IMG/VR virus record: IMGVR_UViG_3300045283_000155
Location: 1-50,458 of that record
Strand: one strand, 5' to 3'
From: a virus
Length of the DNA stretch: 50,458 bases
Part shown: piece after piece, positions 1 through 42,165 of the stretch
Numbering within the stretch: position 1 is the stretch's first letter
Layout: each line of letters begins with the position of its first letter
Notes under the pieces: generated by a model
What the model was told of the DNA's origin: nothing
What the model saw: only the letters and a program-made list of their open reading frames with translations
The model's database searches: none
Position numbers and translations under genes: made by a program

Positions 1-127
1 CAGCAAGGAGTCACTTACAAGGCGTACGTGAAAGCGGCCATGTTTTGGCCCGGGCCGCAAGGGCAAGCCTGGTACTCGGTGTGGGCAGTGTCATCGGCGT
101 TCGGGATTGTGTTCGCCGCGCCGTACA
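1..127. repeat. Terminal direct repeat, left copy
   Basis: Bases 1-127 are identical to 50332-50458. The coding frame of the minor tail gene continues without a break through the repeat. This is what an assembler leaves when it closes a circle with a 127-base overlap, so the molecule is complete and circular or circularly permuted; it is less likely a physical terminal repeat. Confidence 0.95.
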
Positions 128-2714: not shown

Positions 2715-3877
2715 TGTGGCCGGTGACGCAGCGGTTCATCGACACGTTAAGCCGAAGCCATGAACGCCGCTGTTACGTAGAGGTTTTGCATAACAACGTG
2801 GTTGCGACCACTCTCAACGCGACCCTGCTCCCAGATCCGGTCACGGGGAGTCTGGTGCAGTCCATCGGCGGTTCGATACAAGTCGACCGCACCGCAGTCC
2901 GGCGGAGCGGCACGGTCAACTTCGTGGACATCAGCCAAGATGCTGACGCCAACGAAGTCCTCGACCTGTTCCCCACCCTGGTGACCGAAATCCGGCCCTG
3001 GGTCGGGCTGCATTATTGGGACGCGCCCGCGGTCGACCCGCCAGGGGTCACCTCGTGGGAATACGTACCGCTCGGCACCCTCGTCGTCTCTGGTGTCGAC
3101 ACAAGCAATTACCCCGCCGTCAGTGTCGCCGGCTATGACCGGATGTGGCTGGTCGGCCCATTCGCCAACGCATTGTCGATTCCGTCTGGGACGGTGATCG
3201 CGGATGCGATGAACCTGATACTCGGGCAGCAGATCCCCACCGCCCGCCTAGACACATCCGGCATCGTCGCCACCGAGCACACCACCAGCGCCCTGTTGTA
3301 CGCGGAGCAGGACGACGCAGCCCAGAAACTGGCGGACATGGCCGCGACGACCGGCCAGGTGCTGTACGTGGATCAGATGGGTGTGTTCACCACCGACACC
3401 GAACCGTCGACGGATGACGAACCGGTCATGACCTACACCTCGGGGTATGGCGGGTCGGCGATGATGCGCCCGAAACAGGTGATCGACGCGTCCCAGGCGT
3501 ACAACAAGGTCGTATTCACCGGTGAAGGATCCGCGGTGCCACCGGTGCGTGGGGAGGCGCAGGACGACAACCCCGACAGCAGCACCTACGTCGGGAAGGT
3601 TGGGGTACGACCCTATTTTGCGTCTAGCCCGTTGATCACCACTCAGCATCAGGCGGTGCTGGCAGCGAAAACTAGGCTGCTGAATATTCTCGGCATTCCC
3701 GACACCATCAGTGTTCCGGTTCCCCCTAACCCGGCGTTGGAATCCGGGGACGTGATCATGGTGACCGACCTGTCGCAGGGCATCAACTTCCCGGTCATCA
3801 TCGACGCGTTCCCGGCCGCGCTACGTGCATCAGACGGGGAACAAGTTCTCACCTGTCGGCCGCGGGTGATTCGCTGA
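2714..3877 (+). CDS. Putative minor tail protein
   Basis: A 387-residue protein beginning MWPVTQRFIDTLSRSHERR. This opening, followed by a domain carrying phrases such as LGTLVVSGVDTSNYPAVSV, resembles the second minor tail protein that follows the distal tail protein in many actinophages. No catalytic motif is visible. It starts one base before the methyltransferase stop ends and its own stop overlaps the next ATG, so it is translationally coupled in the tail operon. Assignment rests on position and general similarity. Confidence 0.7.
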   Translation: MWPVTQRFIDTLSRSHERRCYVEVLHNNVVATTLNATLLPDPVTGSLVQSIGGSIQVDRTAVRRSGTVNFVDISQDADANEVLDLFPTLVTEIRPWVGLHYWDAPAVDPPGVTSWEYVPLGTLVVSGVDTSNYPAVSVAGYDRMWLVGPFANALSIPSGTVIADAMNLILGQQIPTARLDTSGIVATEHTTSALLYAEQDDAAQKLADMAATTGQVLYVDQMGVFTTDTEPSTDDEPVMTYTSGYGGSAMMRPKQVIDASQAYNKVVFTGEGSAVPPVRGEAQDDNPDSSTYVGKVGVRPYFASSPLITTQHQAVLAAKTRLLNILGIPDTISVPVPPNPALESGDVIMVTDLSQGINFPVIIDAFPAALRASDGEQVLTCRPRVIR

Positions 3878-4461
3878 TGGTGGATCTGACCCCAACCAAA
3901 CGCCGCGGAACGGTTATCAGTATCAGCATGACCCCCGCGCCGACAGTTGAGGTGCAAGTCGGTGCCGACCCATCCGTCACCGACTTCATGCCGTTCGTAG
4001 ACAGTTACGCCCCGCAAGTCGGTGACTATGTGGAACTCCTCGAGAACCAGGGCGCGTATGTTTGCCTCGGCTCGACCGGGTCGCCGGTTGCTTTCTCCGC
4101 GATCGGGCCAGGCGGCACCACCGACTGCACCACCGGTCAGACGATCGTCAGCCTTGCCGTCAACGTGACTTCCGGTCGCACGTACATGGTCGGCGGGTAT
4201 GTGCTTGGGGCTCAAATCACCGTGGCAGGCCGGCCAACCGTCAGCATCCGGGCCGGTGGCAGCGAGATAGGACCCAGCGTGCGCCCGATCGACCGGTTGA
4301 ACACCACCATCGGTGAGGTGATCACCGGCTACGCAGCCTATAGATATCTCGCGACCAGCACGGCTTCGTTGACGTTCTCGATGTTGGGTTCCGCTAGTTC
4401 GGGAGCGTTCCGGGTCGCCGCCAACGCCAGCCAAATCACCGTCGAAGACAACGGCATCTAA
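3877..4461 (+). CDS. Putative tail protein, beta-rich
   Basis: 194 residues, coupled to the preceding gene. The N-terminal 70 residues (MVDLTPTKRRGTVISISM, then VGDYVELLENQGAYVCLGS) look like a small OB-like or gp5-like barrel seen in actinophage baseplate proteins. The remainder is a beta-sandwich-like segment rich in Thr, Ser and Gly. Probably a baseplate or tail-tip component; the domain reading is inference. Confidence 0.65.
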   Translation: MVDLTPTKRRGTVISISMTPAPTVEVQVGADPSVTDFMPFVDSYAPQVGDYVELLENQGAYVCLGSTGSPVAFSAIGPGGTTDCTTGQTIVSLAVNVTSGRTYMVGGYVLGAQITVAGRPTVSIRAGGSEIGPSVRPIDRLNTTIGEVITGYAAYRYLATSTASLTFSMLGSASSGAFRVAANASQITVEDNGI

Positions 4462-4795: not shown

Positions 4796-5265
4796 CGCGG
4801 GTTTACCTTGACACAGAGTTCATCGAGGATGGTCACACCATCGAGTTACTATCGATCGGATTGTTCACTGACGACAACCGCGCGTTTTACGCCGAACCGG
4901 CGGAGACCGACCGGAGCCGGGCTAACGAATGGGTGCGTGAGCATGTCCTCCCGCAGCTCGGTGGCCCGATCTTGCCACGTCGGGAGATAGCGGAGCAGAT
5001 CGTCGCTTTCGTTGGTGACAAGCCCGAGTTTTGGGGTTATTACGCCGACTATGACTGGGTTGCGCTCTGCCAGTTGTATGGCACGATGATGGACTTGCCG
5101 AACGGCTGGCCGATGTATTGCCGCGACCTGAAGCAATGGTGCGATGAGCTAGGCAACCCACGCCTGCCCGAGCAAGGCGACGGGGAACACAACGCCTTTC
5201 AGGATGCTTTTTGGAATCGGAAGGTGTGGGAATTCCTCGCCGCCCGAGCAAGCAGCGCACCATGA
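4792..5265 (+). CDS. RNase AS-like 3'-5' exoribonuclease (DEDDh family)
   Basis: 157 residues closely resembling the mycobacterial Rv2179c protein (polyadenylate-specific RNase AS). The N-terminus YLDTEFIEDGHTIELLSIG carries the DxE metal pair (Asp and Glu of DTE); WGYYADYDWVALCQLYG supplies the second Asp and its family signature; GEHNAFQDA near the end supplies the His and last Asp of the DEDDh set. All expected catalytic residues are present. The known family degrades RNA 3' to 5' with a preference for adenylates. Coupled by 4-base overlaps to both neighbours in the late operon. Role in the phage cycle, such as host mRNA turnover, is inference. Confidence 0.88.
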   Translation: MTRVYLDTEFIEDGHTIELLSIGLFTDDNRAFYAEPAETDRSRANEWVREHVLPQLGGPILPRREIAEQIVAFVGDKPEFWGYYADYDWVALCQLYGTMMDLPNGWPMYCRDLKQWCDELGNPRLPEQGDGEHNAFQDAFWNRKVWEFLAARASSAP

Positions 5266-6209
5266 CCTGGGTGGACACGCCTTGGCCGCAGGACCCAAAA
5301 CGGTTGAAGGCCGGCGGCTACGACATCATGCGGTACCTGTGCTCCGACTGGAACACCGGCCCCGGCACATCCATGCCCAACAAACGCATCTCCCGCCCCG
5401 AACTCGACGGGTATATCGCGGCCGGGGTGGATGTTGCGGTCAACTTCGAGGACGCCGCCGACGACTACCTGGGCGGATATCAACGCGGCAAGGAGAAAGG
5501 GCAGAAGGCCGGCACGTGGATGGCGACCGAGCTCGGCTGGCCATCCGGCGGGGTGTGCTGCTCCTCGATCGACGCTGATATCGGCACTAGCTGGGGTGGG
5601 TTGGCGCAGGCGTATCAGCTCGGGTTCTCCGATGGGCTGAAATCAGCCGGCCCATATCTGCCCGGTATCTACGGGTCGTCGATCGCGTTGAACGGTGCGA
5701 ACCATGACGGTACTGCGGTCGTGTTTTGGAAAACCGCTGCCCTCTCCTGGTCGCACGGTGTTGAACCTGATGTGCTGCACATGTGGCAGAACGGGTATTG
5801 GCCGTTCGGCTCGGATGCTGATCTGAATGTCACCGTGTTGGAGCCGATGGGTTCCTACCTGAACCCCCTGGGAGACGACATGACACCCGATGACTGGGCT
5901 GCGATGTCGAAGCTGATTGACGCTCGGCTGGTCAACTACTTCGCGAACGGTGAAGGCAACCCGAAAACCGGCCGCATCGTTCAAGCATGCAATACCTCGC
6001 TGGTACCCGTTAAAGCTTTCGTAGATACGCTTGAACCGGCCGTGGCGGCGCTACCCACGCTTGCGCAGATCGACGCCCTGATATCGAACATTGGGATCAC
6101 GTTGACGGATGCGCAGGTGGCGGCGTTGGGGGCGGTGTTGGCGCAGTCCGCTCCGCCGAACTACACCGGCACGGTTGATATTCGACCTGCCCCGCCCGTG
6201 ACCCCATGA
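5262..6209 (+). CDS. Endolysin-like protein with DUF1906 glycoside-hydrolase-like domain
   Basis: 315 residues; start ATG at 5262 overlapping the previous stop. Residues 1-205 match the DUF1906 (Rv2525c-like) TIM-barrel fold: GGYDIMRYLCSD, then AGVDVAVNFEDAADDY, then GVCCSSIDADI and GPYLPGIYGSS. This family is widespread in actinobacterial secreted proteins and actinophage lysins. The C-terminal part has Ala/Leu/Val-rich helices (VAALPTLAQIDAL) and probably binds the wall or forms oligomers. No amidase, peptidase or separate lysozyme domain is seen, and no signal peptide, so release would use a holin. Followed by membrane-protein genes, consistent with a lysis cassette. Confidence 0.8.
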   Translation: MTWVDTPWPQDPKRLKAGGYDIMRYLCSDWNTGPGTSMPNKRISRPELDGYIAAGVDVAVNFEDAADDYLGGYQRGKEKGQKAGTWMATELGWPSGGVCCSSIDADIGTSWGGLAQAYQLGFSDGLKSAGPYLPGIYGSSIALNGANHDGTAVVFWKTAALSWSHGVEPDVLHMWQNGYWPFGSDADLNVTVLEPMGSYLNPLGDDMTPDDWAAMSKLIDARLVNYFANGEGNPKTGRIVQACNTSLVPVKAFVDTLEPAVAALPTLAQIDALISNIGITLTDAQVAALGAVLAQSAPPNYTGTVDIRPAPPVTP

Positions 6210-6391
6210 CCGCCAACGCTGACTTCTACGGCGATGACGCCGAAGACATTCAGTACCTCGATTCTCTCGACTCCCGCGTCACAGTCTGGGACGTAACTAG
6301 TCGCAACTGGCGGACGCTGCGGCTACCCCTTACGACCACGACTACCCCCGTCACCTTCACGCAGATGTCTCCCTCGCCCCGTGACCACTAA
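6206..6391 (+). CDS. Hypothetical small protein
   Basis: 61 residues, acidic N-terminus (DFYGDDAEDIQYLDSLDS), Thr-rich C-terminus, no membrane segment. Coupled to the lysin by an ATGA overlap and overlapped by the following gene. Function not recognised; perhaps a lysis-module accessory. Confidence 0.6.
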   Translation: MTANADFYGDDAEDIQYLDSLDSRVTVWDVTSRNWRTLRLPLTTTTTPVTFTQMSPSPRDH

Positions 6392-6734
6392 GGCCCCGGT
6401 TGAGTTCAAGGTTGTTGCAGGCACATCCGGTGCCGGCGCGGGTTTCATACTCAGCCAGTTCATTCTGTGGCTACTCGGCTGCTGGGCGTGGGGCGCATCC
6501 TGGGCAGCGGACAAAGCCGTTGATGCTATAGCTGCGGTGCCGCAGCCGGCGGCTGAGATGATTGGGCTGGTTGTGACCGTGATCGGTGCCTACGTGTTCG
6601 GTTGGCTGGCGCCGCACACCCACCGACCCGCACCTGACCCGGATCCAACACCGGCACCTACCGCCCCGAAACCGATTACACTTGATCACGGGAGTGACGA
6701 TCTGCTCCACACCGAACCGCTACCCGAGGTGTAG
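6381..6734 (+). CDS. Holin-like membrane protein
   Basis: 117 residues, GTG start overlapping the previous gene by 11 bases. Two hydrophobic segments are visible: about residues 18-38 (AGFILSQFILWLLGCWAWG) and 58-75 (MIGLVVTVIGAYVFGWL). A Pro-rich, acidic cytoplasmic-type tail follows. Two membrane segments, small size and position right after the lysin fit an actinophage holin. Other membrane genes nearby at 6760 and 7573 could share or hold that role. Confidence 0.65.
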   Translation: MTTKAPVEFKVVAGTSGAGAGFILSQFILWLLGCWAWGASWAADKAVDAIAAVPQPAAEMIGLVVTVIGAYVFGWLAPHTHRPAPDPDPTPAPTAPKPITLDHGSDDLLHTEPLPEV

Positions 6735-6759
6735 CTGACCAATCCCGGGGGTGTGTCCA

Positions 6760-7569
6760 ATGGCGGACGGTGCCATACCGGAAGGCGCTGCGAGTCTAAC
6801 TGGGTGGACCCCGGTGCCGGACCCGACGAAGCTCACGACGGACGCGGTAGACAAGGTCAAGGCCGAGCTGAAGCAGATCATCGACGAACGGGACGCGCAA
6901 CGGACCCGTGATCTAGAGAATCTTCGGCAGATAATCGAGGCCCGTCTCGACGCCAGCGACATCGCCACCGACCTGCGGCTAGAAGCGATGCGGGAAGTCC
7001 GGCCGCAAACTGAGCGGCAAATCTTCCATCTGAGGGAACTACTCGAGCAGCGGTTCGCGCTGTCCGACGAGAAGTTTGAGGGTGTCGCGCAGCAGTTCCG
7101 GGAGCGGGACACCCGCACCGATCAGGCAGCGACCGCGTCGCAGCAGGCGTTGACGCAGGCTTTGATCGCCGCTAAGGAACTGGTTGGGCAGCAGAACGCG
7201 GCGAACGTCGAAGCCGCCGCCAAAGCGGAAGCGTCGACCACGAAACAGATCGATCAGATCACTGTGACGATGGCGAATGCTGAGCGGGCCAGCAGTGAAC
7301 GCACGGCGACTGTTGAGAAGTCGCTGACCGATCGTCTCCTCGAGTTGAAGGAACGTATCGACCGGGGCGAACCGGGGGCGTTCGATAAGGGTGAGAGCGC
7401 TGCGATGGTTGAGGCCCGCGCGGTCGCCGCCGCGCAGTTGGCTGTCGCTAACTCGCATCAGGGTGCGGTCGCGAACCGGATCTCCGCGAACGCCTTACTG
7501 GCCAGCGCCGTCGGGTTACTGATCACGGTCGGCGGCATCATCGTCGCCGTCATCCTCGCCCGCGGTTGA
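6760..7569 (+). CDS. Coiled-coil protein with C-terminal membrane anchor
   Basis: About 269 residues. ATG at 6760 preferred over GTG at 6751 because CCCGGGGG then sits at good spacing. A long charged, Gln/Ala/Glu-rich helical region (about residues 20-225) predicts coiled coil; the last 25 residues (ALLASAVGLLITVGGIIVAVILARG) form one membrane segment. Located between two holin-like genes, it could be a tail-anchored lysis or cell-envelope protein. Family not recognised with certainty. Confidence 0.7.
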   Translation: MADGAIPEGAASLTGWTPVPDPTKLTTDAVDKVKAELKQIIDERDAQRTRDLENLRQIIEARLDASDIATDLRLEAMREVRPQTERQIFHLRELLEQRFALSDEKFEGVAQQFRERDTRTDQAATASQQALTQALIAAKELVGQQNAANVEAAAKAEASTTKQIDQITVTMANAERASSERTATVEKSLTDRLLELKERIDRGEPGAFDKGESAAMVEARAVAAAQLAVANSHQGAVANRISANALLASAVGLLITVGGIIVAVILARG

Positions 7570-7572
7570 GCC

Positions 7573-7707
7573 ATGACGTGGCCGTGGGTCGCGCTGATCC
7601 TGGCTGGAAGCGTCGGCGGCGCGGTCCTCGGTGTGACGCTCTGGCTGATCTACCGCAAAGGCAGAAGCCGCTCAGATAAACAGGAGGATGCCAATGGTGA
7701 CCCGTGA
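7573..7707 (+). CDS. Small single-pass membrane protein, possible holin
   Basis: 44 residues: MTWPWVALILAGSVGG, then a hydrophobic stretch to about residue 27 and a basic, polar tail. One N-terminal membrane helix plus a basic tail is the topology of small class III-like holins or holin partners. It begins four bases after the previous stop and overlaps the start of the peroxidase gene, whose Shine-Dalgarno sequence lies inside it. Confidence 0.65.
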   Translation: MTWPWVALILAGSVGGAVLGVTLWLIYRKGRSRSDKQEDANGDP

Positions 7708-9271
7708 GATCAGCCGCCGCGCCATGCTTCAACGCTTCGGCATCGGCGGTGCCGCGCTCGGCGCAGTCACACTCCTCGACGGCGGCGGCAGGGCATTCGC
7801 CAAAGTGCCCACCGACACACCAGCCGCCGACCACCTCCCACCAGCCACCAGCAACCCCAGCGGCCTATCCAAGTTCGGGTTCATGTTCCCCCGCCTACCC
7901 GGGCTGCATGACACGGACCCGTCAATCGGTATGGACCAACTCGCCGCACTAGCCCTCTCAATGCAAGACCCCGGCGTCAACTTCCCGGCAGCGAACAATC
8001 GGGACAACACCGAATCAGCGTCGGTGTTCACCTACCTCGGCCAATTCATCGACCACGATCTGACGCTGGACCTGGAACCGCAGCCAACCGTGTTCTTCGC
8101 CCAAGACTCGGACGGGATGCTCCTCGACGATGAGGGCGGCTCGGTGTTCAACAACGAGTCGTACCGGTTCGACCTGTCCAGCGTTTACGGCGGCGGTCCG
8201 ACCCGAAGCCCGCAACTGTACGAGTCGGACCGTCTCCATTTCCGGGTGGTGGAGTCCAACGCGAACGGTGTGCGGGACCTGCCTCGTAACCCTGACCAGA
8301 CGGCGATCCTGGTTGAGCACCGCAACGATGAGAACGAGGTTATTTCCCAGGTTCACACGGCGGTCCTGAAGTTCCACAACGCTGTCGTGGATTCGGGTGT
8401 CCGCGACTTCGCGCGGGCGGCCATGCTTACGCGCCAGCATTATCAGTGGATCGTTGTGCACGAGTTCCTGCCGCACATCATCGGGCAGGACGTGGTCGAC
8501 GGCCTGCTGAACGGCACGATTCCACGGTTCTACAAGCCGACGGACATGGTGCGGCCGTTCACCCCGGTGGAGTGGTCCACCGCCGCCTACCGGTTCGGGC
8601 ATTCACAGGTCCGGCTCGCCTACCAGATCGCCCGCCCAGTGAGCGCCACCGCCGCGCCGGTCAAGGTGCAAGTGTTCAACCTGGCCGGCACCGACCTGCA
8701 CGGCGGACGCATGCTTCCGGCCGCGAACCTCATCGACTGGGGCCAGTTCGTTCCCGCCCTTCGCCGTCCCGAGAACACCGGCACCGAGGCCGGGGCGAAT
8801 GAGCATTTCAACTTCCCGCGGCAGATCGACACGTTCCTCTCCAAGAGTCTGTTCGCGTTGCCGATCGGTGGGCAGACCGGTGCCGAATCATCCGGCTCGA
8901 ATTCGTTGGCGTTCCGTAACTTCGTGCGCCAGTTCTTCTACAACACCCCAACCGGGCAGGCCGTCGCCGCGGCTATGGGTCTCCCGGTGATCAGCCCAAC
9001 CGATGCGATTGATCCGACCGTTGTGCCGGGTTTCGAGAAGGCGACCCCGCTCTGGTACTACATTTTGAAGGAGTCGGAGCTGGCTGGCGGTTTGAGGCTC
9101 GGCCCGACCGGTGGCCGCATCGTCGGTGACGTGCTCCTCGGCCTGATCGAATCAGATCCGCTCGGCATCATCCGGCAGCCGTTCACCCCGCAACCACCGA
9201 TCGCACCCACGGCGGGGCAGTTCACGATGGCTGATCTTCTTGTGTTCGCCGGGGTAGCGACCCGCCCGTAA
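7694..9271 (+). CDS. Tat-exported animal-type haem peroxidase
   Basis: 525 residues of the An_peroxidase superfamily (myeloperoxidase/peroxinectin-like, bacterial branch). ATG 7694 is chosen because AGGAGG ends six bases before it; ATG 7688 abuts the AGGAGG. Residues 1-36 are a twin-arginine signal (SRRAMLQ with Arg8-Arg9, hydrophobic core, cleavage after AFA). Catalytic residues by comparison with myeloperoxidase: Asp120 and distal His121 in GQFIDHD, Arg210 and Glu213 in HRNDE, proximal His303 in YRFGHS, Asn409 in FRNF. The C-terminus has family signatures PLWYYILKE, GGRIVGDV and MADLLVFAG. Known members use H2O2 to oxidise halides or organics. A complete, exported oxidase in a late phage operon is very unusual. 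Confidence 0.93.
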   Translation: MVTREISRRAMLQRFGIGGAALGAVTLLDGGGRAFAKVPTDTPAADHLPPATSNPSGLSKFGFMFPRLPGLHDTDPSIGMDQLAALALSMQDPGVNFPAANNRDNTESASVFTYLGQFIDHDLTLDLEPQPTVFFAQDSDGMLLDDEGGSVFNNESYRFDLSSVYGGGPTRSPQLYESDRLHFRVVESNANGVRDLPRNPDQTAILVEHRNDENEVISQVHTAVLKFHNAVVDSGVRDFARAAMLTRQHYQWIVVHEFLPHIIGQDVVDGLLNGTIPRFYKPTDMVRPFTPVEWSTAAYRFGHSQVRLAYQIARPVSATAAPVKVQVFNLAGTDLHGGRMLPAANLIDWGQFVPALRRPENTGTEAGANEHFNFPRQIDTFLSKSLFALPIGGQTGAESSGSNSLAFRNFVRQFFYNTPTGQAVAAAMGLPVISPTDAIDPTVVPGFEKATPLWYYILKESELAGGLRLGPTGGRIVGDVLLGLIESDPLGIIRQPFTPQPPIAPTAGQFTMADLLVFAGVATRP

Positions 9272-9309
9272 CTGATTCATCCCCCATCTAACGCGCAGGG
9301 AGTAGACCC

Positions 9310-9801
9310 GTGGCGTTCACCGCGATCATGGCCACCCAATACACGAATCAATTGGCCACGAAGACGATTAACATGTCGACGGATACGTTCCGGGTGATTC
9401 TGTTGACGTCGGCGACTACCGGCCTGGCTGCGGCGCAGGACACTATGACGACGATGACCTCCGTTAAGGCGGTCACCGGCTTCACTGAACTCGCCACCGC
9501 AGTAGGCGGCTCCAACTACACGCAGAACGCCAACAGCACCTCGAGCGGGCAGGCCATCTCCGGATCCACCTGGACCCGCACCGGACACGTGTGGACATGG
9601 ACCGCAACCAACCCCGTCTGGACCACCGCCGGCGCCGCATTCAACCCCGCCTACGCCGTGTTCTTCACATCCACCGGCGGGACTGATGCCACGAACTTCA
9701 TCATCTGTTGGTGGGATTTCGGGGGAGCGCAGCTCGGGACTGGCGGGAACTACACGTTGACCATCGCTGGTACCGGTCTCGTCACCGCGACAAGTTCGTA
9801 G
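9310..9801 (+). CDS. Putative virion surface protein
   Basis: 163 residues, GTG start after GGGAG. Thr/Ala/Ser-rich with alternating beta pattern and several Trp (WTRTGHVWTWTATNPVW). No signal peptide, no catalytic motif. Similar architecture to small actinophage head or tail decoration proteins. Position in a run of similar beta-rich genes suggests a virion component. Confidence 0.65.
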   Translation: MAFTAIMATQYTNQLATKTINMSTDTFRVILLTSATTGLAAAQDTMTTMTSVKAVTGFTELATAVGGSNYTQNANSTSSGQAISGSTWTRTGHVWTWTATNPVWTTAGAAFNPAYAVFFTSTGGTDATNFIICWWDFGGAQLGTGGNYTLTIAGTGLVTATSS

Positions 9802-9816
9802 GAGGTTGACCCTGTA

Positions 9817-10104
9817 ATGAGTGTCGGATACGCAGCGGATAAAGGGTCGATCGACAGTCGCGCCGGTAACCTGGCGCAGGTTTTGCGGGACAACTTTACG
9901 AATATTCAAAGCTTCCAGAAATGGCTGCTGGCAACCCCCGACGCGAATTTCACCGCGCTCGGCTACACGACGCAGGAGATTGCCACACTCAAATCCGCGT
10001 ACGTCGATCTGAACAAGCTCGCGACCATCTACCTGGGCACGGCGACGCAAGCCACCGCGTACGACTTCACCCAGTTCGCGAAGCTACTCGTCGGCGTGTT
10101 CTAA
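9817..10104 (+). CDS. Hypothetical small virion-module protein
   Basis: 95 residues, start ATG with a strong AGGAGG upstream. Predicted largely helical (QVLRDNFTNIQSFQKWLL), unlike its beta-rich neighbours. No membrane segment. Perhaps a connector between surface proteins or a fibre trimerisation partner; not recognised. Confidence 0.6.
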   Translation: MSVGYAADKGSIDSRAGNLAQVLRDNFTNIQSFQKWLLATPDANFTALGYTTQEIATLKSAYVDLNKLATIYLGTATQATAYDFTQFAKLLVGVF

Positions 10105-12063: not shown

Positions 12064-13215
12064 GTGGCAGCGCTGATCCGCTACGGAGTCCCACGAGACC
12101 GTGTCCCACCCGGGGCGACCAGCCGCCCAGTCGGCCCGATCGCCGCCGCGACCGCCATCTCCATCAACGCCCCTACCGCCACGGTGGTGTTGGCGGCCCG
12201 CACCGGCTCAGTCTCGGTAACCCTCCCCGGTGTTACGGCTGCGGTGGTTCTGGCTGCTCCGGCGGGTTCCGTCAGCGTCAGCATCAACGCCCCAACCGCG
12301 ACCGTTGTCCTCGCGGCACCAACAGGCACGATCGCTGTCACCTTGCCGGGCGTCACTGCGGCGGTGGTGTTCGCGGCACCGGTAGGCGGCTTCTCCACCC
12401 TCACCAACTTCTCCGCCAACGGCGTCACCGCCACCGTTGTGCTGGCTGCCCCGGCGGGGTCGGTATCGGTCACCCTCCCAGGCGCCACCGGCCAACTGGT
12501 CTTCGCCGCTCCCGCGGGCAAGGTTTCCGTCACCTTGCCGGGTGCGACCGCCACGATAGTATTGGCGGCGCCGGCTGGGGCCGTCGCGGTTACCCTCCCA
12601 GGACAAACCGCAACCTTGGTGCTGGCCGCCCCAGCCGGCACCATCAGCATCACCCTCCCCGGCGTTACGGGGACGGTCGTCTTCGCTGCACCGGCCGGGA
12701 ACTTCAGCACCGGTAGCTTTGTCAACATTCCTGGCGTCACTGCCACGATCGTGTTGGCGGCACCGTCCGGGGTTATCGCAGTCACCTTGCCCGGTGTTAC
12801 TGCGACCCTGGTTCTGGCCGCACCGACCGGGTCCGTTTCGGTCAACATTCCCGGTGTTACTGCCGCGGTTGTGCTGGCCGCACCCGCGGGCAAAGTGTCG
12901 GTCGGGATCAACGGGCCCACCGCCACGCTCGTGTTCCAAGCCAAGGCGGGCGGGTTCGCGGTCCCATTCCAAGCCCTCGGCGTCACCGCGGCGCTAGTCC
13001 TCGCCGCACCCGCCGGGTCGGTGCTGATCGCGCAGCTCGGCCGTGAGATCACCATCATCGCCGACCTCACCGCAACCCGGTACAGCGCCGACCTCACCGC
13101 CACCCGCTACACCGCCGACGCCTCGAGCAGCCGCTACAGCGCCGACGTCACCGCCTCGAGATACGGCTCCGACCAGACCAGCACCCGCTACGGGGCCGAC
13201 CTCAACGAACAGTAA
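12064..13215 (+). CDS. Repetitive beta-solenoid-like surface protein
   Basis: 383 residues, GTG start after GGGGAG. After about 30 residues come roughly fourteen units of 20 residues with consensus TLPGVTATVVLAAPAGSVSV (some units are extended to 26-28). The C-terminal 55 residues carry five 9-residue units of the form AD-x-T-x-x-RY-x. The first array has the strict hydrophobic alternation of a beta-solenoid or stacked beta-hairpin fibre; the second may be a helical or trimeric tip. No signal peptide. Probably a virion-attached fibre or adhesion protein. The upstream gene at 10820 carries one copy of the unit. Confidence 0.75.
   Translation: MAALIRYGVPRDRVPPGATSRPVGPIAAATAISINAPTATVVLAARTGSVSVTLPGVTAAVVLAAPAGSVSVSINAPTATVVLAAPTGTIAVTLPGVTAAVVFAAPVGGFSTLTNFSANGVTATVVLAAPAGSVSVTLPGATGQLVFAAPAGKVSVTLPGATATIVLAAPAGAVAVTLPGQTATLVLAAPAGTISITLPGVTGTVVFAAPAGNFSTGSFVNIPGVTATIVLAAPSGVIAVTLPGVTATLVLAAPTGSVSVNIPGVTAAVVLAAPAGKVSVGINGPTATLVFQAKAGGFAVPFQALGVTAALVLAAPAGSVLIAQLGREITIIADLTATRYSADLTATRYTADASSSRYSADVTASRYGSDQTSTRYGADLNEQ
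12157..13029 (+). repeat. Tandem 60-bp coding repeats (about 14 copies)
   Basis: DNA basis of the 20-residue protein array. Units diverge at third positions while the protein motif stays fixed, so the array is under protein-level selection and not freshly amplified. Confidence 0.85.
13060..13194 (+). repeat. Five tandem 27-bp coding repeats
   Basis: Encodes five 9-residue units with invariant Arg-Tyr (TRYS, TRYT, SRYS, SRYG, TRYG) immediately after the 20-residue array. Confidence 0.8.
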
Positions 13216-13225
13216 GGACACACCC

Positions 13226-13723
13226 TTGAGAAAACTCGTCGCCTTCGTCATGGCCCTCGCGGTGATGCTCGGCGTTGTCACCGCAACCGCGACAACCGCC
13301 TCCGCGTACACGGCTGTCCTCTATAGCTCAACCTACGGAAACGGTATCGGCGTCACTCGAGACGTGCCGTCTACTTACGGCTGGCACGCCGGCGACAGCA
13401 ACCACACCCTGAAGTTCCAAACCGACTGCAACCTAGTCGAATACTGGGGTACGCATGGCGCCTGGTGGGCGACCAACACGGTCACATCACTGCGGCCATG
13501 TCACTGGAAGCTTCAACAGGACGACAATCTAGTCATCTACCGGTCGAACGGGTCAGTGGCGTACGCGACCAACACGGTGCATAACGGCACCGAGGCGTTC
13601 GTGTTGCTCACCAACGGCTGCGTCAACATGTATCACCTAACCGGCGGATATGTGCACCCGGAGAGGCAGTTGGCTGGCACATTCGGCACTGACCTGACCA
13701 CCTGCGACGTGACGGTGGCGTGA
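13226..13723 (+). CDS. Sec-exported bulb-type (B-lectin) lectin
   Basis: 165 residues, TTG start at 13226 with AAGGA eight bases upstream. Residues 1-27 are a Sec signal peptide (MRKLVAFVMALAVMLG, ending ATTASA). The mature protein carries two copies of the mannose-binding signature QxDxNxVxY: QTDCNLVEY and QQDDNLVIY, the hallmark of monocot-type bulb lectins, and a degenerate third site (LLTNGCVNMY). Such lectins bind alpha-mannosides. In a late operon a secreted lectin could bind host-wall mannan or lipomannan, or serve lysis or release; this is inference. It follows the repeat-fibre gene. Confidence 0.85.
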   Translation: MRKLVAFVMALAVMLGVVTATATTASAYTAVLYSSTYGNGIGVTRDVPSTYGWHAGDSNHTLKFQTDCNLVEYWGTHGAWWATNTVTSLRPCHWKLQQDDNLVIYRSNGSVAYATNTVHNGTEAFVLLTNGCVNMYHLTGGYVHPERQLAGTFGTDLTTCDVTVA

Positions 13724-16423: not shown

Positions 16424-16592
16424 GCCGGGTCCGCGGATGCCGCTCATCGGTATCCGCCTCGACCCCGAACTAGTCGCGAAGATTGATGAGGCGGCCGCCA
16501 TCGAGGGCAAGTCGCGGTCTGAAGTGGTGCGGGACATCCTCACCGAACGATTCACGGGGAAGGAAATACGGACGGCACCGCCAGGGCTGTGA
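16416..16592 (+). CDS. Ribbon-helix-helix DNA-binding protein
   Basis: 58 residues. IGIRLDPELVAKIDEAAAIEG supplies the beta strand and first helix, KSRSEVVRDILTERF the turn and second helix: an Arc/CopG fold. Expected to bind as a dimer to a palindrome, most simply the GTAGTGT inverted repeat in its own promoter. Its last 41 bases overlap the 3' end of the convergent integrase gene, and its C-terminal tail is encoded by the 35-bp duplicated segment. Confidence 0.8.
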   Translation: MPRPGPRMPLIGIRLDPELVAKIDEAAAIEGKSRSEVVRDILTERFTGKEIRTAPPGL

Positions 16593-17448
16593 TCGCCTCC
16601 AGGAAACCGGCCGTCCCCGCCGAATCCAACTGCACATACCCCCTAGTTGTGTCCACCGACGAGTGTCCCATCACCTGCGCCACCAGAAACGGATCCCGCG
16701 TCCTCCCGTACAACGCTGTGCCGAACCGGTGCCGCAGGGTGTGCGCCGTGTGATCTATCCCCAAACTGTGCAAATGCTTGTTGATGCGTTCGGAGACACG
16801 ACCCGCGCTCGGTGCACCGGGGCCGCCGTCCATGCGTTGAAATAGTGGTCCGCGCCTCGGCATACCCGCCTCGAGCAGCTCCCCGAGCACCCGAGCCGGC
16901 AATGGCACGATTCGCACTTTGCCGCCTTTCCCGTAGATCCGCATCGCCGTCGGCGGGCCCATGTCGATCATCTCGCGGGTGAGTGCCGCTATCTCCATAC
17001 ACCGGAGTCCACAGAAGGCGGCGAGGCTGATCCAGGCCCGTTCCGGTTGCCCCGCGGTTTCGATTGCTAACGCAACGTCCCCGTCAGCCATCGGCCTCGG
17101 CAGGTGCTGGCGGATGTGCTGCGGCCGGACGAGGGCGATGGTCGGGTCGTCGCGGCGGTGCCTTGCGGTGGCCACCCACCGGATGTACTGCCCGACGTGA
17201 ACGACTTCGTTGTGCATGCTGGCGGCGGTCAGATGAAACAGTCCCATCTGCCATACCTCCAATTGTTCGCGGGTGAGGTGGGCGACGGGTTGGCCGATGA
17301 TGCGGCGGGCCCGCATGACGGCGAGGCGTCGTTCCCGGATATATCGGGGCCGTTGGTTACGGAGTCGTAGATGGTCGAGGTGCAGAGGCAGCAGTGGCTC
17401 TGAATCCATCGAGGCAAGCTCCCGTGGTCGTCGTTGAGTTCCGGGCAC
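16552..17448 (-). CDS. int: Tyrosine integrase
   Basis: 298 residues; catalyses site-specific recombination between attP and a host attB. An N-terminal SAM-like DNA-binding domain (residues 20-105) precedes the catalytic domain with Arg149 (CGLRCME), Lys177 (GKGGKVR), His236-x-x-Arg239 (HTLRHRFG), His262 (GHSS) and Tyr271 (TTRGYVQ): the complete set. Short, XerC/D-like, without an obvious arm-binding domain. GTG start at 17448 with AGGAG upstream; an ATG at residue 14 is an alternative. Half-operators overlap its leader, suggesting repressor control. Its 3' end is duplicated 450 bp away. Confidence 0.93.
   Translation of the reverse strand: MPGTQRRPRELASMDSEPLLPLHLDHLRLRNQRPRYIRERRLAVMRARRIIGQPVAHLTREQLEVWQMGLFHLTAASMHNEVVHVGQYIRWVATARHRRDDPTIALVRPQHIRQHLPRPMADGDVALAIETAGQPERAWISLAAFCGLRCMEIAALTREMIDMGPPTAMRIYGKGGKVRIVPLPARVLGELLEAGMPRRGPLFQRMDGGPGAPSAGRVSERINKHLHSLGIDHTAHTLRHRFGTALYGRTRDPFLVAQVMGHSSVDTTRGYVQLDSAGTAGFLEAITALAVPSVFPSP
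16553..16587. repeat. Integrase 3'-end direct repeat, in-gene copy
   Basis: Partner of 16101-16135. Encodes the integrase C-terminus leftward and the C-terminal tail of the RHH protein rightward. A candidate recombination or att-core segment. Confidence 0.75.
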
Positions 17449-18410: not shown

Positions 18411-18844
18411 TGGCCGGAACTTGTCGAGTTGAAGGATGTCAGCGGCCGAGCCGTTCCCGTGGCTGGTGCGACGCCCACTACCGGCGATGGGAGAGGAACG
18501 GAGACCCAGGTCCCGCGCTGATAGGACCGGCACACCGCTACGACGGCTTGCAGGTTGAGGCAGCCAGGGTTCTCGGTATCCACCAGTCCGGTATCAGCCG
18601 GAGGATGCGCGGCGAGACCGCGTGGCGGGTCAACGAGCTGGATCTACTCGCCCAGGAACTGAACGTATCTTTGGACCAGCTGCTCAGGGTCGAGCCGAGC
18701 GTGAGAAGCAGGGAAGACAGGGTTTCAGCGGCACCTTCTACGGGGGTGCGCCGCGGGCAGACCTCGGCTGGTCCCGTCCCTCTCCCTGAGCAGCCTCAAC
18801 CTGATCTTAACGGCCGTGGCAAACGCCGAAAGGCCACACCGTGA
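18410..18844 (+). CDS. Cro-like regulator: zinc motif plus helix-turn-helix
   Basis: 144 residues from the leaderless GTG at 18410 (ATG 18395 would lie in the operator and before transcription starts). CRVEGCQRPSRSRGWCDAHY is a four-ligand zinc knuckle also seen at HNH-type actinophage proteins; EAARVLGIHQSGISRRMRG is a helix-turn-helix. The C-terminus is disordered and basic (NGRGKRRKATP). First gene of the rightward early operon and opposite the repressor, so most simply a Cro-type antirepressor of the same operators. Confidence 0.75.
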   Translation: MAGTCRVEGCQRPSRSRGWCDAHYRRWERNGDPGPALIGPAHRYDGLQVEAARVLGIHQSGISRRMRGETAWRVNELDLLAQELNVSLDQLLRVEPSVRSREDRVSAAPSTGVRRGQTSAGPVPLPEQPQPDLNGRGKRRKATP

Positions 18845-19515
18845 CCCGGCCACGTCTACTGGATCTGTTCTGCGGCGCTGGCGGTGCCGCGATGGGATAC
18901 CACCGCGCTGGGTTTGATGTCGTCGGCGTTGACAACCGGCCGCAGCCGCATTACCCATTTGAATTCCATCAGCTAGACGCCTTAGAAGTTCTGCACTGGG
19001 TGATTGACCCCGTAACCGCAACAGGGCAGTACATCACGGGAGACTGGGACGCCATTCACGCGTCACCGCCTTGTCAAGACCACGTGCGGGCACCCGGGCC
19101 GGCAGCCAAACATGGAACCGGGTGGATGCTGGCTGCCACTCGAGACCGACTCCTCGCCCAAAGCTTGCCTTGGGTCATCGAGAACGTGCCCGGCGCGCCG
19201 ATGCGGTCCGACTACAAACTCTGCGGTTGCATGTTCGGGCTACGGAAACTGAAGCGCGAACGATGGTTTGAGACGTCATGGCATGCGTTTGATCTGCGGC
19301 AACCCTGTAACCATCCAGAGCCGGTCATCAGTGTCACCGGCACCGGCACGCCGACCGGAACTTGGAAGGTCTACGGCTCGCTTCGCACCGCTGACTTTGG
19401 TGCTGTGCTTGGCATTGACTGGATGAATCGCGAGGAACTATCCCAGGCCATCCCGCCCGCCTACACCCAGCTCATCGGTGAACAGTTACTCGCCCACCTG
19501 AAGTTACCCGTGTAA
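18841..19515 (+). CDS. dcm: DNA cytosine-5 methyltransferase
   Basis: 224 residues, GTG start with GTGA overlap. Motif I LLDLFCGAGGAAMGYHRAGF binds AdoMet; motif IV ASPPCQDH has the catalytic Cys; motif VI is VIENVPGAP. Shorter than typical Dcm enzymes, with a reduced target-recognition region, as is usual for actinophage versions. No partner endonuclease is present, so it likely protects phage DNA from host restriction. Confidence 0.88.
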   Translation: MTRPRLLDLFCGAGGAAMGYHRAGFDVVGVDNRPQPHYPFEFHQLDALEVLHWVIDPVTATGQYITGDWDAIHASPPCQDHVRAPGPAAKHGTGWMLAATRDRLLAQSLPWVIENVPGAPMRSDYKLCGCMFGLRKLKRERWFETSWHAFDLRQPCNHPEPVISVTGTGTPTGTWKVYGSLRTADFGAVLGIDWMNREELSQAIPPAYTQLIGEQLLAHLKLPV

Positions 19516-38137: not shown

Positions 38138-38460
38138 CTCGATATCTGGTGGACATCGACGAAGAACTCTTAACAGAGCAGCCGTCCTTAGATTTTCCTG
38201 CCGACTGGCGAATCGTCGAAATTGGCCCCGGGGTGGGGCCTCACCTTCGACGATGTGTCGTTGAGGACGGCAGTGCCCCGGCTGAGCTTGAAGGGCACCT
38301 CATCGACCCGACGATGCAGCGCGGCGCCGACGGCACCGTCAAAGTCGTATCTAGGACAGACCGCGGGTTCAGCGTCCCCATCAACTGGAAACCCGGCCAA
38401 GTTGAGCACATTCGGGCGTTACTCCGAGAGGCTGCTGATGGGGCTGTTGGAGCGGGTTAA
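38134..38460 (+). CDS. Hypothetical protein before portal
   Basis: 108 residues, ATGA overlap. Mixed alpha/beta (VDIDEELLTEQPSLDFPADW; VSRTDRGFSVPINWKPGQVE). Overlaps the portal start by 23 bases. Unknown. Confidence 0.6.
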   Translation: MTRYLVDIDEELLTEQPSLDFPADWRIVEIGPGVGPHLRRCVVEDGSAPAELEGHLIDPTMQRGADGTVKVVSRTDRGFSVPINWKPGQVEHIRALLREAADGAVGAG

Positions 38461-39820
38461 CACCCAGGTCGGCCCAGTCGCCGGACGGCCCCTCAACCTG
38501 TCCCTGGACGAATACGCGTCCTGGTTCTCGTATGGGGGCGCGAACTATCCGCTGCTGCAAACCACCTACAGCGGCATCGATCAGGAACGGATCGCGTGGA
38601 CCGCTGACGCGGCAGCGAAACGTTCCGGCCCGGTGTTCGCGTTGGTGTTGGCGCGGATGCAGGTTTTTTCACAGATCCGCTTTCAATGGACGATGTTCTC
38701 CGGTGCGCAGCCGGGGGACTTGTTCGGCACCCGCGATTTGAAGGTCCTCGAAAACCCGTGGCCAGGTGGGGTAACCGCCGACCTACTTGCCCGCATGGAA
38801 TGGGACGCCTCCGCCTCCGGGCAGGCATACATCAGGCGGAACGCCAACACCCTCCACCGCCTGTATCCGGCGTGGGTGACCATCGCGATGGGCTCACAGG
38901 AGGACGCCGAATCACCCTGGACCGCACCGGACACCACCGTAGCCGGCTATCTGTGGAACCCGCCCAGCGGTAAAGCCCGGTTCTTCACCCCAGAACAAAT
39001 CTGCCACTACGCACCGATCCCCGACCCTGACCGGCATTTCCTCGGCCAATCATGGATCACACCCGTGTTGCGCGAGTTGCAGGGCGATCAGGCGTCAACG
39101 GAGCACAAGTACCGGTTTTTTGAGAACGCAGCGACTCCGAACCTGGCGATCAAGTTCGACCCGTCCATCGGTGTCGACATGGTCCGCCAATTCAAAGAAC
39201 TGTTGGAGACGGAGTACCGCGGCGTCGCCAACGCCTACAAAACGATGTTCCTCGGTGGCGGCGCTGATCCGGTAACGATCGGATCCACGTTCAAAGACAT
39301 GGACTACGCCGTCGTGCAGGGCCGCGCCGAGTCCAGGTTGGCCGCAGCAGCCGGTGTCCCCCCGTCGTGGGTCGGGTTCGCTGAGGGCCTAGAAGGCAGC
39401 GCCCTTAACGCTGGCAACTTTGGTGCAGCGCGGCGTCGGTTCTCTGACGGGACGATGGCCCATTTGTGGGGTAACGCGTCGTCCTCGTTGCAGCAGATCA
39501 TGCAAACCCCGCCCGGCGCCTCCCTCTGGTATGACGACCGGATCCCGTTCATGCGGGAAGACGCCTCCGACATTGCTGCTATCCAAACAGCTGAAGCAGC
39601 GGTTATCGCGTCACTGATCCGTGAGGGCTTCGAACCGCCTTCAGTTGTGAAAGCCGTCAAAAACAATGACTGGACAGCGTTGAAGCATTCCGGCCTGCTC
39701 AGTGTGCAGCTGCAACCACCGGGCTCGGCAACTAAACAACTAGACCCGGGGATGCCTGATCCGATGAAGATGCCCGACATGGCGGGAGCCAACGGGAACG
39801 GGAATGGGGCACGTAAATGA
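38438..39820 (+). CDS. Portal protein
   Basis: 460 residues from ATG 38438, preceded by CGAGAGG; longer in-frame openings upstream overlap another gene. HK97-family portal signatures: AKRSGPVFALVLARMQVFSQ near the N-terminus, QAYIRRNANTLHRLYPAWV, FTPEQICHYAPIPDPD, then AVVQGRAESRLAAAAGVPPS and WYDDRIPFMREDASD. Forms the dodecameric vertex through which terminase pumps DNA. Its stop overlaps the protease start as ATGA. Confidence 0.9.
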   Translation: MGLLERVNTQVGPVAGRPLNLSLDEYASWFSYGGANYPLLQTTYSGIDQERIAWTADAAAKRSGPVFALVLARMQVFSQIRFQWTMFSGAQPGDLFGTRDLKVLENPWPGGVTADLLARMEWDASASGQAYIRRNANTLHRLYPAWVTIAMGSQEDAESPWTAPDTTVAGYLWNPPSGKARFFTPEQICHYAPIPDPDRHFLGQSWITPVLRELQGDQASTEHKYRFFENAATPNLAIKFDPSIGVDMVRQFKELLETEYRGVANAYKTMFLGGGADPVTIGSTFKDMDYAVVQGRAESRLAAAAGVPPSWVGFAEGLEGSALNAGNFGAARRRFSDGTMAHLWGNASSSLQQIMQTPPGASLWYDDRIPFMREDASDIAAIQTAEAAVIASLIREGFEPPSVVKAVKNNDWTALKHSGLLSVQLQPPGSATKQLDPGMPDPMKMPDMAGANGNGNGARK

Positions 39821-42165
39821 CGGCACGGCGCGAGCGTGACGGCCAGGGCTGGTACCGGATCACCAACCTAGATGGCGGTCCGTCACAAATCCTGATCTAC
39901 GACGAGATCGGGTTTTGGGGAGTGACTGCGCAACAGTTTCTCCACGATCTGGGGGCGGTGAACGGCCCCGTCGATGTGCACATCAACAGCCCCGGCGGCG
40001 ACGTCTTCGACGCCTATGCCATCTACAACGCTCTGGTTGCCCGACCCGGGGTGACCACGGTGGTGGATTCGTTGGCCGCGTCGGCCGCCTCGGTGATCGC
40101 GATGGCGGGTGAACAACGGTTGATGGCCCGCACCTCCCAGATGATGATCCACGACGCGTTCGCTGTCGCCGAGGGCGGTGGTAAGGACCTACGGCATATG
40201 GCTGACCGGCTCGACACTGTGTCGGGGCAGATCGCCGGCGTGTACGCGGACACCGCCGGCGGGCAGCCCGACTATTGGCGTGGGCTCATGTCCGCGGAAA
40301 CGTGGTTCACCCCGCAACAGGCTTTCGAGGCCGGTTTGATTACTGGTATCACCGGGGCCGCGCGAGAACCCGCGGCCGCTGCTACAGCCTCAGCCCCCCA
40401 TCCACGTGGGGGGCTTCTTAACGCCAACACGTCGATCCAGCCGACCGGTTGGGATCCGGACGGCGACGGCGACGACGACTCCGCCCCCCAGACGGATACC
40501 GACAACTCCCACTGGGATGCGGACGGGAACCAAACCAAATCAGTGCCAGGTCGGCCGATGCCGGGGCAGCCCCCCATCGAGCAGCCAACACCCAACAACC
40601 AAGCAAGTGCGGCGCCTGCGCCCGCAAACAACGGAAAGGGAAACCCCATGCCAGATGATCTGGGCGCGCTGACCATCGAAGGCCGCCGCACCCGCATCCC
40701 CGAAATCACCAACGAGCTGAGCGACATCGCCGGTCGGTGGCCGGCGTCGGTGTTGCCTGCCGACATTCAGGCGAAGTGGAACGACCTCGTGAAGGAGCGT
40801 CGGGAGCATCAGGAGGCGTTGGATGCGGTTGATGCCCGTAACGCGATCCTCGCGGAGCATTACGCCGCCAACCCGAACACCCACGATGTATCACTGACCC
40901 CCGGCGTGGACAACGGCCCCGCGCCGGGCACCTCGAACGCTAACGGCCGGCAGTCCTTCGGTGCCCCGAACGTGCACATCCGCGGTGACATTTACAACCT
41001 GGGTGCGATCCGGCAGCAGGCCAGCAACGAGGAGCAGCTACCCGGCCTGTACCGGGACTACGCGATGCGGGCCATCGAGGAGCACACATTCCCCGGCGCC
41101 ACCAAACTTGGTTCCAGCCGGGAAACGATGCAGGCCAACTGCGAGAAGCAGCTATACGTCACCGACGACACAACCGGCTGGGTCGCGCGGCGGATCCTCG
41201 CCACCGGCTCACCTGATTATCTGCGGGCCTACACCGCTGCGCTGAAATCGGGCAGGGCGCCAGGCGGGCGAGACGGCGAAATCCTGAACTTGGGTGAGTC
41301 CGACTCGGGTTCGTTCGCGGTTCCGTTCCAACTGGACCCGACCGTGATCCTCGTGTCGAACGGGGCGATCAACCCGCTGCGGCAGATCAGCCGGGTAGAG
41401 CAGATCACCGGGAAAGAATTCGACCTTGTCACCTCCACCGGTGTCACTGTGTCCCGTAAGGCGGAGTTCGCGCCTGAAACTTCCGTCGCACCGACCCTCC
41501 TGCAGCCCACGTTGCAGCCCAAACGCGTGTCGGCGTGGATCCCGTTCTCCGTCGAGTTGGAAGGCGACTGGTCCGGTCTGCAGGCGTCGATGATGGCACT
41601 GCTGAGTGACGCGAAAGACGTGGAAGAGTCGAACTCGTTCACGTTGGGCGCGGGTACTGGTGTGACCGCGGGTGGTGTCGTCACCCTCCAGTCAGGTGGT
41701 TCCCTCGTAACGTTGACCGGCGGCGTCTCAACCCTGTCGTTCAAAGACCCGGAAACACTCGAATCGGCGATGGCCCCCCGGTTCCGTGTAGCCGCCTCCT
41801 ATCTGGCATCGAAAACCACCTACAACAAATATCGGAACCTGTTCGCTGCGCAGACCGGATTCGCGACCGACCCGTGGAACCGGCCCACCCTCGGCCAGCC
41901 CCGCGAACTTTGGGGATACCCCGCGTACGAAGACTCCGACATGGTCGCCACCAACGTCACCGGCGACAAAGTCCTGTTGATGGGCGACTTCGGCCACGGC
42001 TTCCTCATCGTTGACCGTGTTGGGATGAATGTTGAGCTTGTCCCGACCGTCTTCGGCGCGGCCCAGGGCCAGTTCCCGACCGGTACCCGCGGTTACTTCG
42101 CTTGGTGGAGAAATAACTCGACTGTCCTGATCCTGAACGCGTTCCGTCTCGGCGTCGTCGGCTAG
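39817..42165 (+). CDS. ClpP-like head protease fused to major capsid protein
   Basis: 782 residues. Residues 1-190: ClpP-type prohead protease with VHINSPGGDVFDAYAIYNAL, catalytic Ser in DSLAASAASVIAMAG, His in MMIHDAF. Residues about 190-277: acidic, Pro/Asn-rich linker. Residues 278-782: scaffold-like coiled coil (LTIEGRRTRI, VKERREHQEALDAV), then an HK97-fold capsid protein (LRQISRVEQITGKEFDLVTS; YAFW-type end FAWWRNNSTVLILNAF). An internal in-frame ATG at 40648 with GGAAAGGG seven bases upstream would give a separate 505-residue capsid protein. So one gene probably yields both fusion and free capsid subunits. Confidence 0.9.
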   Translation: MTARRERDGQGWYRITNLDGGPSQILIYDEIGFWGVTAQQFLHDLGAVNGPVDVHINSPGGDVFDAYAIYNALVARPGVTTVVDSLAASAASVIAMAGEQRLMARTSQMMIHDAFAVAEGGGKDLRHMADRLDTVSGQIAGVYADTAGGQPDYWRGLMSAETWFTPQQAFEAGLITGITGAAREPAAAATASAPHPRGGLLNANTSIQPTGWDPDGDGDDDSAPQTDTDNSHWDADGNQTKSVPGRPMPGQPPIEQPTPNNQASAAPAPANNGKGNPMPDDLGALTIEGRRTRIPEITNELSDIAGRWPASVLPADIQAKWNDLVKERREHQEALDAVDARNAILAEHYAANPNTHDVSLTPGVDNGPAPGTSNANGRQSFGAPNVHIRGDIYNLGAIRQQASNEEQLPGLYRDYAMRAIEEHTFPGATKLGSSRETMQANCEKQLYVTDDTTGWVARRILATGSPDYLRAYTAALKSGRAPGGRDGEILNLGESDSGSFAVPFQLDPTVILVSNGAINPLRQISRVEQITGKEFDLVTSTGVTVSRKAEFAPETSVAPTLLQPTLQPKRVSAWIPFSVELEGDWSGLQASMMALLSDAKDVEESNSFTLGAGTGVTAGGVVTLQSGGSLVTLTGGVSTLSFKDPETLESAMAPRFRVAASYLASKTTYNKYRNLFAAQTGFATDPWNRPTLGQPRELWGYPAYEDSDMVATNVTGDKVLLMGDFGHGFLIVDRVGMNVELVPTVFGAAQGQFPTGTRGYFAWWRNNSTVLILNAFRLGVVG
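40392..40415 (+). other. Terminator-like hairpin inside the fusion linker
   Basis: Perfect 8-bp stem AGCCCCCC/GGGGGGCT (40392-40399, 40408-40415) followed by TCTTAA. It lies where separate protease and capsid genes would normally meet; may be a relic, a pause or recoding element. Two six-base homopolymers also make it sequencing-error-prone. Confidence 0.6.
40631..40650 (+). promoter_or_regulatory. Internal ribosome-binding site and start for free capsid protein
   Basis: ACGGAAAGGGAAACCCCATG: a purine-rich Shine-Dalgarno with seven bases to an in-frame ATG. The protein from here (MPDDLGALTIEGRR) begins exactly at the scaffold-like domain. Confidence 0.65.

Follow-up and report, generated by a model that had tools for sequence, protein, structure and literature searches.

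We found that a haem peroxidase gene in the 50,458-nucleotide stretch of viral DNA analysed here (the window) belongs to a phage-borne, virus-only branch, which is represented by one complete genome and at least 20 other bacterial-virus metagenome contigs. Drawing on sequence comparison and on a structural model, we consider it likely that the product is a catalytically competent, exported haem peroxidase of late infection, which would represent a phage-borne lineage of the peroxidase-cyclooxygenase superfamily and consume H2O2 outside the membrane. To our knowledge, an exported myeloperoxidase-type haem enzyme has not been described in phages before. The first-pass annotation likewise knew of no described phage with such an enzyme, and this agrees with our searches: tblastn against 50,697 phage records gave no homologue of the window protein or of two divergent members of the branch, none was present in PHROGs or among BFVD phages, and searches of open-licence papers in PubMed Central gave no case of a phage haem or animal-type peroxidase.

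The peroxidase gene and its active site

Translation likely begins at the ATG at position 7694, since an alternative in-frame ATG at 7688 overlaps the Shine-Dalgarno sequence (Table 1). The first-pass annotation had read in this frame a complete An_peroxidase domain with a distal Asp120-His121 pair, Arg210, Glu213, a proximal His303 and Asn409. This reading was confirmed: the gathering score of the PF03098 profile, 25, was exceeded by the window protein (42.5 bits, E 4.2e-11) and by nine relatives, and each of these residues was found where it had been placed. The published superfamily signature consists of GQxxDHD, RxxE and a proximal His with Asn (PMC4420034). The window protein carries all of it, as GQFIDHD (residues 116-122), R210-N-D-E213, His303 and Asn409, and by this signature Gln117 would bind halide, Asp120 would form a haem ester, His121 would be the distal histidine, and Asp122 would be a calcium ligand.

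When 16 viral proteins were aligned with 69 others (85 rows), Gly116, Gln117, His121, Asp122, Arg210, and His303 were invariant, and Asp120 was kept in 83 rows, including all 16 viral ones. Glu213 was invariant among the 16 viral rows, and position 409 was Asn in 13 of 15 viral rows and Asp in two. By a rough estimate, the gene is under purifying selection, with a dN/dS of approximately 0.21 to 0.58 for viral pairs more than 66% identical and dS saturated in three pairs.

The protein is predicted to have the alpha-helical peroxidase fold (AlphaFold model from a 70-row alignment; pLDDT 85.5, pTM 0.87). The best Foldseek match of this model in the PDB was the cyanobacterial peroxidase 8s6c (E 1.5e-16), followed by Dictyostelium DdPoxA, lactoperoxidase, and myeloperoxidase (probability 1.00), with moderate TM-scores of 0.5 to 0.6 and only 14 to 18% sequence identity to the solved structures. 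Signature and predicted fold thus bear out an animal-type haem peroxidase. Kinship with myeloperoxidase, which had also been proposed, stood as to fold and signature but not as to closeness, given this low identity to the animal enzymes and the bacterial origin of the nearest cellular proteins.

Table 1. Coordinates of features in the window
Feature	Position	Strand	Remark
Direct terminal repeat	1..127	.	Identical to 50332-50458
Rv2525c-like glycoside-hydrolase-like protein, lysis region (PF08924)	5262..6209	+	Homologues in relatives start at 5262
Small membrane protein, holin-like	6381..6734	+	By inspection
Coiled-coil protein with C-terminal TM; left flank of insertion	6760..7569	+	
44-aa single-TM ORF overlapping peroxidase start	7573..7707	+	Absent at same site in L149, L150
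Shine-Dalgarno AGGAGG	7682..7687	+	6 nt before ATG 7694; sequence read
Haem peroxidase gene, PF03098 fold, virus-only clade member	7694..9271	+	525 aa, intact ORF
Putative N-terminal export signal, residues 1-36	7694..7801	+	RR codons 7715-7720; inspection; cleavage site inferred
Distal motif codons Gln117..Asp120-His121-Asp122 (GQFIDHD)	8042..8059	+	Alignment; signature from PMC4420034
Catalytic Arg210 and haem-ester Glu213 (RNDE)	8321..8332	+	Alignment
Proximal His303 codon	8600..8602	+	Alignment
Asn409 (partner of proximal His) and conserved Arg412	8918..8929	+	Alignment
PHROG 644 protein; right flank of insertion	9310..9801	+	87-88% identical in relatives without peroxidase
Tyrosine integrase (PF00589)	16552..17448	-	Pfam
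Terminase large subunit, phage hallmark	35855..37321	+	Homology
Portal protein	38222..39820	+	Identity 41% with Gordonia phages, 57-59% with portal relatives in two actinobacterial genomes

Probable export signal

The N terminus has the layout of a Tat-type signal by inspection, with SRRAMLQRFG followed by a moderately hydrophobic stretch and AFA, in agreement with the twin-arginine signal proposed earlier. The arginine pair was invariant in all 12 viral members of the Tat subclade, whose signals are of the RR type with a less hydrophobic core. The remaining viral members have Sec-like or lipoprotein-like N termini or an unclear start (L178). No Tat-signal model of Pfam or NCBIfam scored above its cut-off in the window protein or its homologues; Pfam TAT_signal reached 18.7 bits, below cut-off, in the L002 homologue only, and the NCBIfam model matched the L003 homologue, also below cut-off. 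Parsimony on the tree needs one change between Tat-type and Sec-type export. Judged from the N termini, which are of the export type in nearly all members, export is conserved in the clade although its route changed once, and the window peroxidase is very likely exported. The most divergent member of the viral clade (L180, positions 2929-4362) has a lipobox-like AYGC at its N terminus and an antirepressor-like gene nearby.

Genome of the phage

The first and last 127 bases of the window are identical, forming an exact direct terminal repeat, and the window thus closes on itself at about 50,331 bp and is a complete phage genome. It encodes a terminase, a portal protein, a protease-capsid fusion, a tape measure, an integrase, and a repressor-like HTH protein, the last being a weak Pfam match of the Cro/C1 type, below its cut-off. 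Closure and the genes from terminase to integrase bear out the claim that the peroxidase is phage encoded. A chimeric assembly of host and phage DNA is unlikely, given the terminal repeat and the many independent viral contigs described below. Because of its tyrosine integrase, the phage is probably temperate. Terminase and portal resemble those of Gordonia and Mycobacterium phages at 41 to 45% and point to actinobacteria as the putative host.

The matches to a head maturation protease and a major head protein lie in one 782-aa ORF (39817-42165), which constitutes the protease-capsid fusion. A DNA methyltransferase gene is found amid the tail genes (1917-2714), and a second, of the C-5 cytosine type, at 18841-19515. 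The late region also encodes a highly repetitive protein with VVLAAPxGSVSVTLPG repeats (12064-13215), and a small protein at 13226-13723 has a signal-peptide-like N terminus and lectin-like repeats by inspection and no Pfam match.

Gene neighbourhood and transcription

Three TM-bearing ORFs lie upstream of the peroxidase gene in the window, and more late-region genes lie downstream. A scan of positions 6700 to 9900 for sigma-70-like promoters and for terminators gave neither, and Rfam had no match in the region. Because no such site was found and the start of the gene overlaps the upstream ORF, we infer that the peroxidase is transcribed by late read-through. The same scan speaks against an autonomous moron with a promoter and terminator of its own; the other mark of a strict moron, presence and absence at one site between close relatives, was observed (see below).

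Virion genes surround or adjoin the peroxidase gene, at varying positions, in L002-L005, L095, L097, L101, L104-L106, L112, L167, L173, and L178, and in most cases it runs in the same direction as the head, tail or post-tail genes of its block and is closely packed with them. L112 has terminase, portal, peroxidase, protease, capsid, and L097 has portal, protease, capsid, peroxidase; elsewhere, the gene directly precedes the capsid gene (L005), lies upstream of the tape measure (L106) or stands between terminase and portal (L104). These placements support, for the window and most relatives, the late-operon position assigned at first pass. Late transcription is not universal among carriers, since structural blocks do not include the gene in L100, L103, and L111, and in L103 it is reversed. 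This last copy (L103, 4574-6319) is a peroxidase of the L105/L106 type, runs opposite to its neighbours and lies away from virion genes. An all-against-all comparison of the contigs found general virion proteins common to subsets and, beyond these, no neighbour common to carriers that might be a partner gene; no H2O2-producing partner gene was identified.

The peroxidase gene comes and goes, since two close relatives (L149 and L150, whose aligned flanks share 71 to 89% identity with the window) are without it at the same site. In both, the counterpart of the gene at 6760-7569 is followed by a stretch of about 100 bp able to fold as a three-way-junction RNA; the counterpart of the 9310-9801 gene comes next in L149, and L150 ends there. 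A similar RNA-like element precedes the same right-hand gene in L151, where the peroxidase is absent between the same flanking regions. In the window, the ORF at 7573-7707 and the peroxidase gene stand in place of this element. This conserved RNA-like element (L149, 2030-2130; L151, 3090-3195; L150, about 4144-4215) had no Rfam match in any of the three and folding z-scores of -2.6 (L149) and only -0.9 (L151), and a pattern search gave two exact copies only.

Viral relatives and origin

Homologues in viral databases, to which the first-pass annotation had looked for support, were found: at least 22 further distinct contigs in IMG/VR, which are metagenomic assemblies with inferred hosts, carry relatives 41 to 62% identical to the window protein, and several additional matches are near-identical copies of L005. 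The carrier contigs are otherwise largely unrelated. In the stretch fetched, eleven of the first 12 had no further detectable gene in common with the window, and in L003 part of the tape measure is shared.

All 23 viral sequences in the tree fell on one side of a branch with a support of 100/99, in agreement with an earlier 17-sequence tree. By this sequence evidence, the viral peroxidases form a clade of their own, apart from every cellular homologue sampled (the 80 best loci of a pattern scan and 397 actinobacterial genomes). Residues specific to the clade include Val207-Glu208 before the catalytic Arg, Pro129/Pro131, and Tyr416. The nearest cellular homologues in a genome-contig scan were bacterial (Nitrospira, 41%; Nocardioides, 37%), with a best cellular score of 309 to 311 bits versus at least 439 for viral members, and no phage-type copy was present among the 397 actinobacterial genomes. 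A class-level search of 66 genomes, run without a positive control, gave no match. Recent host capture was rejected, as no cellular homologue in the genome-contig scan was closer than about 41%. Three distant peroxidases on viral-classed contigs (L113, L114, and L115) fall among cellular sequences in the tree and either have a separate origin or represent misclassified contigs.

Possible role of the peroxidase

Catalysis by peroxide is well supported by the anatomy of the protein. In the mechanism that we propose, haem b would be attached through ester bonds with Asp120 and Glu213, as family chemistry suggests, and H2O2 would react at His121/Arg210 to give Compound I, which could oxidize halides or thiocyanate (Gln117 is present) or organic donors. 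The enzyme would be made late in infection alongside virion proteins, would pass the Tat pore folded and with its haem (the sister subclade has Sec-type signals) and would act beyond the cytoplasmic membrane, both before lysis and after it. The benefit that we rank first, which is possible rather than probable, is the removal of H2O2 at the infected-cell surface and in the lysate, which would shield envelope and virions up to the moment of release.

The enzyme could instead serve as an oxidative weapon, producing hypohalous acids or hypothiocyanite that, in the surroundings of an infected or lysed cell, would damage competing bacteria or phages. The GQxxDHD motif, complete with its halide-binding Gln, and the halide oxidation seen in most studied superfamily members (PMC4420034) speak for this, as do export and release at lysis, which would place the product outside. 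However, the phage's own virions would also be exposed to the oxidant, neither an H2O2 source nor a halide gene was found in the neighbourhood, and the nearest bacterial families have no known substrate; we regard this role as somewhat unlikely. We find it unlikely, too, that the enzyme oxidizes tyrosines, phenolics or receptors and thereby cross-links proteins of the wall or virion or destroys receptors, which would keep progeny from rebinding debris or secondary phages from entering. Peroxidasins and ovoperoxidase do cross-link proteins, and late expression with virion genes and an extracytoplasmic address would suit such a role, but no conserved partner gene was found and the shared neighbours are general virion proteins.

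A lysogenic benefit, in which the prophage would equip its host with an additional exported peroxidase for coping with oxidative stress, had been offered by the first-pass annotation. The window phage itself is consistent with this, having an integrase and the weak, below-cut-off Cro/C1-type HTH match, and such an effect is reported for the secreted peroxidase, of another kind, that Liberibacter prophages encode (PMC12628843). As a general explanation, it is weakened and probably does not hold, since only the window record shows an integrase and none of the 12 other carrier records (many of them fragments, five longer than 46 kb) has a tyrosine or serine integrase. Neither an autonomous promoter or terminator nor a phage-type copy in the actinobacterial genomes was found, and we hold this reading to be quite improbable. 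It is very improbable indeed that the gene is an artefact, in which assembly fused a host gene with phage DNA, or a functionless relict. The empty site of L149 and L150, and the lack of the gene from between the same flanks in L151, would fit this. Against it stand the closed contig, the presence of the gene on at least 22 further viral contigs, in most of them next to phage genes, a viral clade that excludes all sampled cellular copies, and an intact ORF with a conserved active site.

The occurrence of a phage-only branch in largely unrelated tailed phages, under purifying selection, suggests that phages carry out, and profit from, peroxide chemistry beyond the host membrane. We put forward with considerable doubt the broader proposal that, for phages of soil and other bacteria, a dedicated and ancient haloperoxidase lineage confined to viruses serves as an extracellular enzyme of late infection. 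If true, this would be a chemical layer of attack or defence in lytic infection, with chemistry comparable to that of neutrophil myeloperoxidase. In animals, haem peroxidases of this superfamily play a central part in immunity, and their bacterial relatives have no known role. The branch raises a testable question about the chemistry around a lysing cell and enlarges the set of enzyme classes that phages are known to export.

Comparison with known peroxidases

The short bacterial peroxicins (family 5, PMC4420034) share the fold, the signature and the single domain of about 500 aa. The viral proteins differ from them in being phage carried, in forming a clade apart from the cellular homologues sampled (100/99), in having an export-type N terminus in nearly all members and in their clade-specific residues; the nearest sampled homologues are bacterial single-domain proteins, in a tree built without reference peroxicins. 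The peroxidase 8s6c, DdPoxA, lactoperoxidase, and myeloperoxidase have the same catalytic residues at 14 to 18% identity to the window protein. Asn214 of the window protein replaces Met243 of myeloperoxidase, so that presumably no sulfonium link is formed. The only significant viral fold matches in BFVD were an Orpheovirus haem peroxidase and a Yasminevirus alpha-dioxygenase, which belong to giant viruses of eukaryotes, not to phages, and are 12 to 14% identical.

EfeB/YcdB, of the DyP type, is a Tat-exported haem peroxidase of bacteria, although its fold is unrelated to that of the window peroxidase. The Liberibacter prophage peroxidase SC2_gp095, which we take to be a peroxidase of a different kind, is likened here by description and not by sequence. 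Prophage encoded, secreted and ROS scavenging (PMC12628843), it is a lysogenic effector, whereas the gene described here would be a late one.
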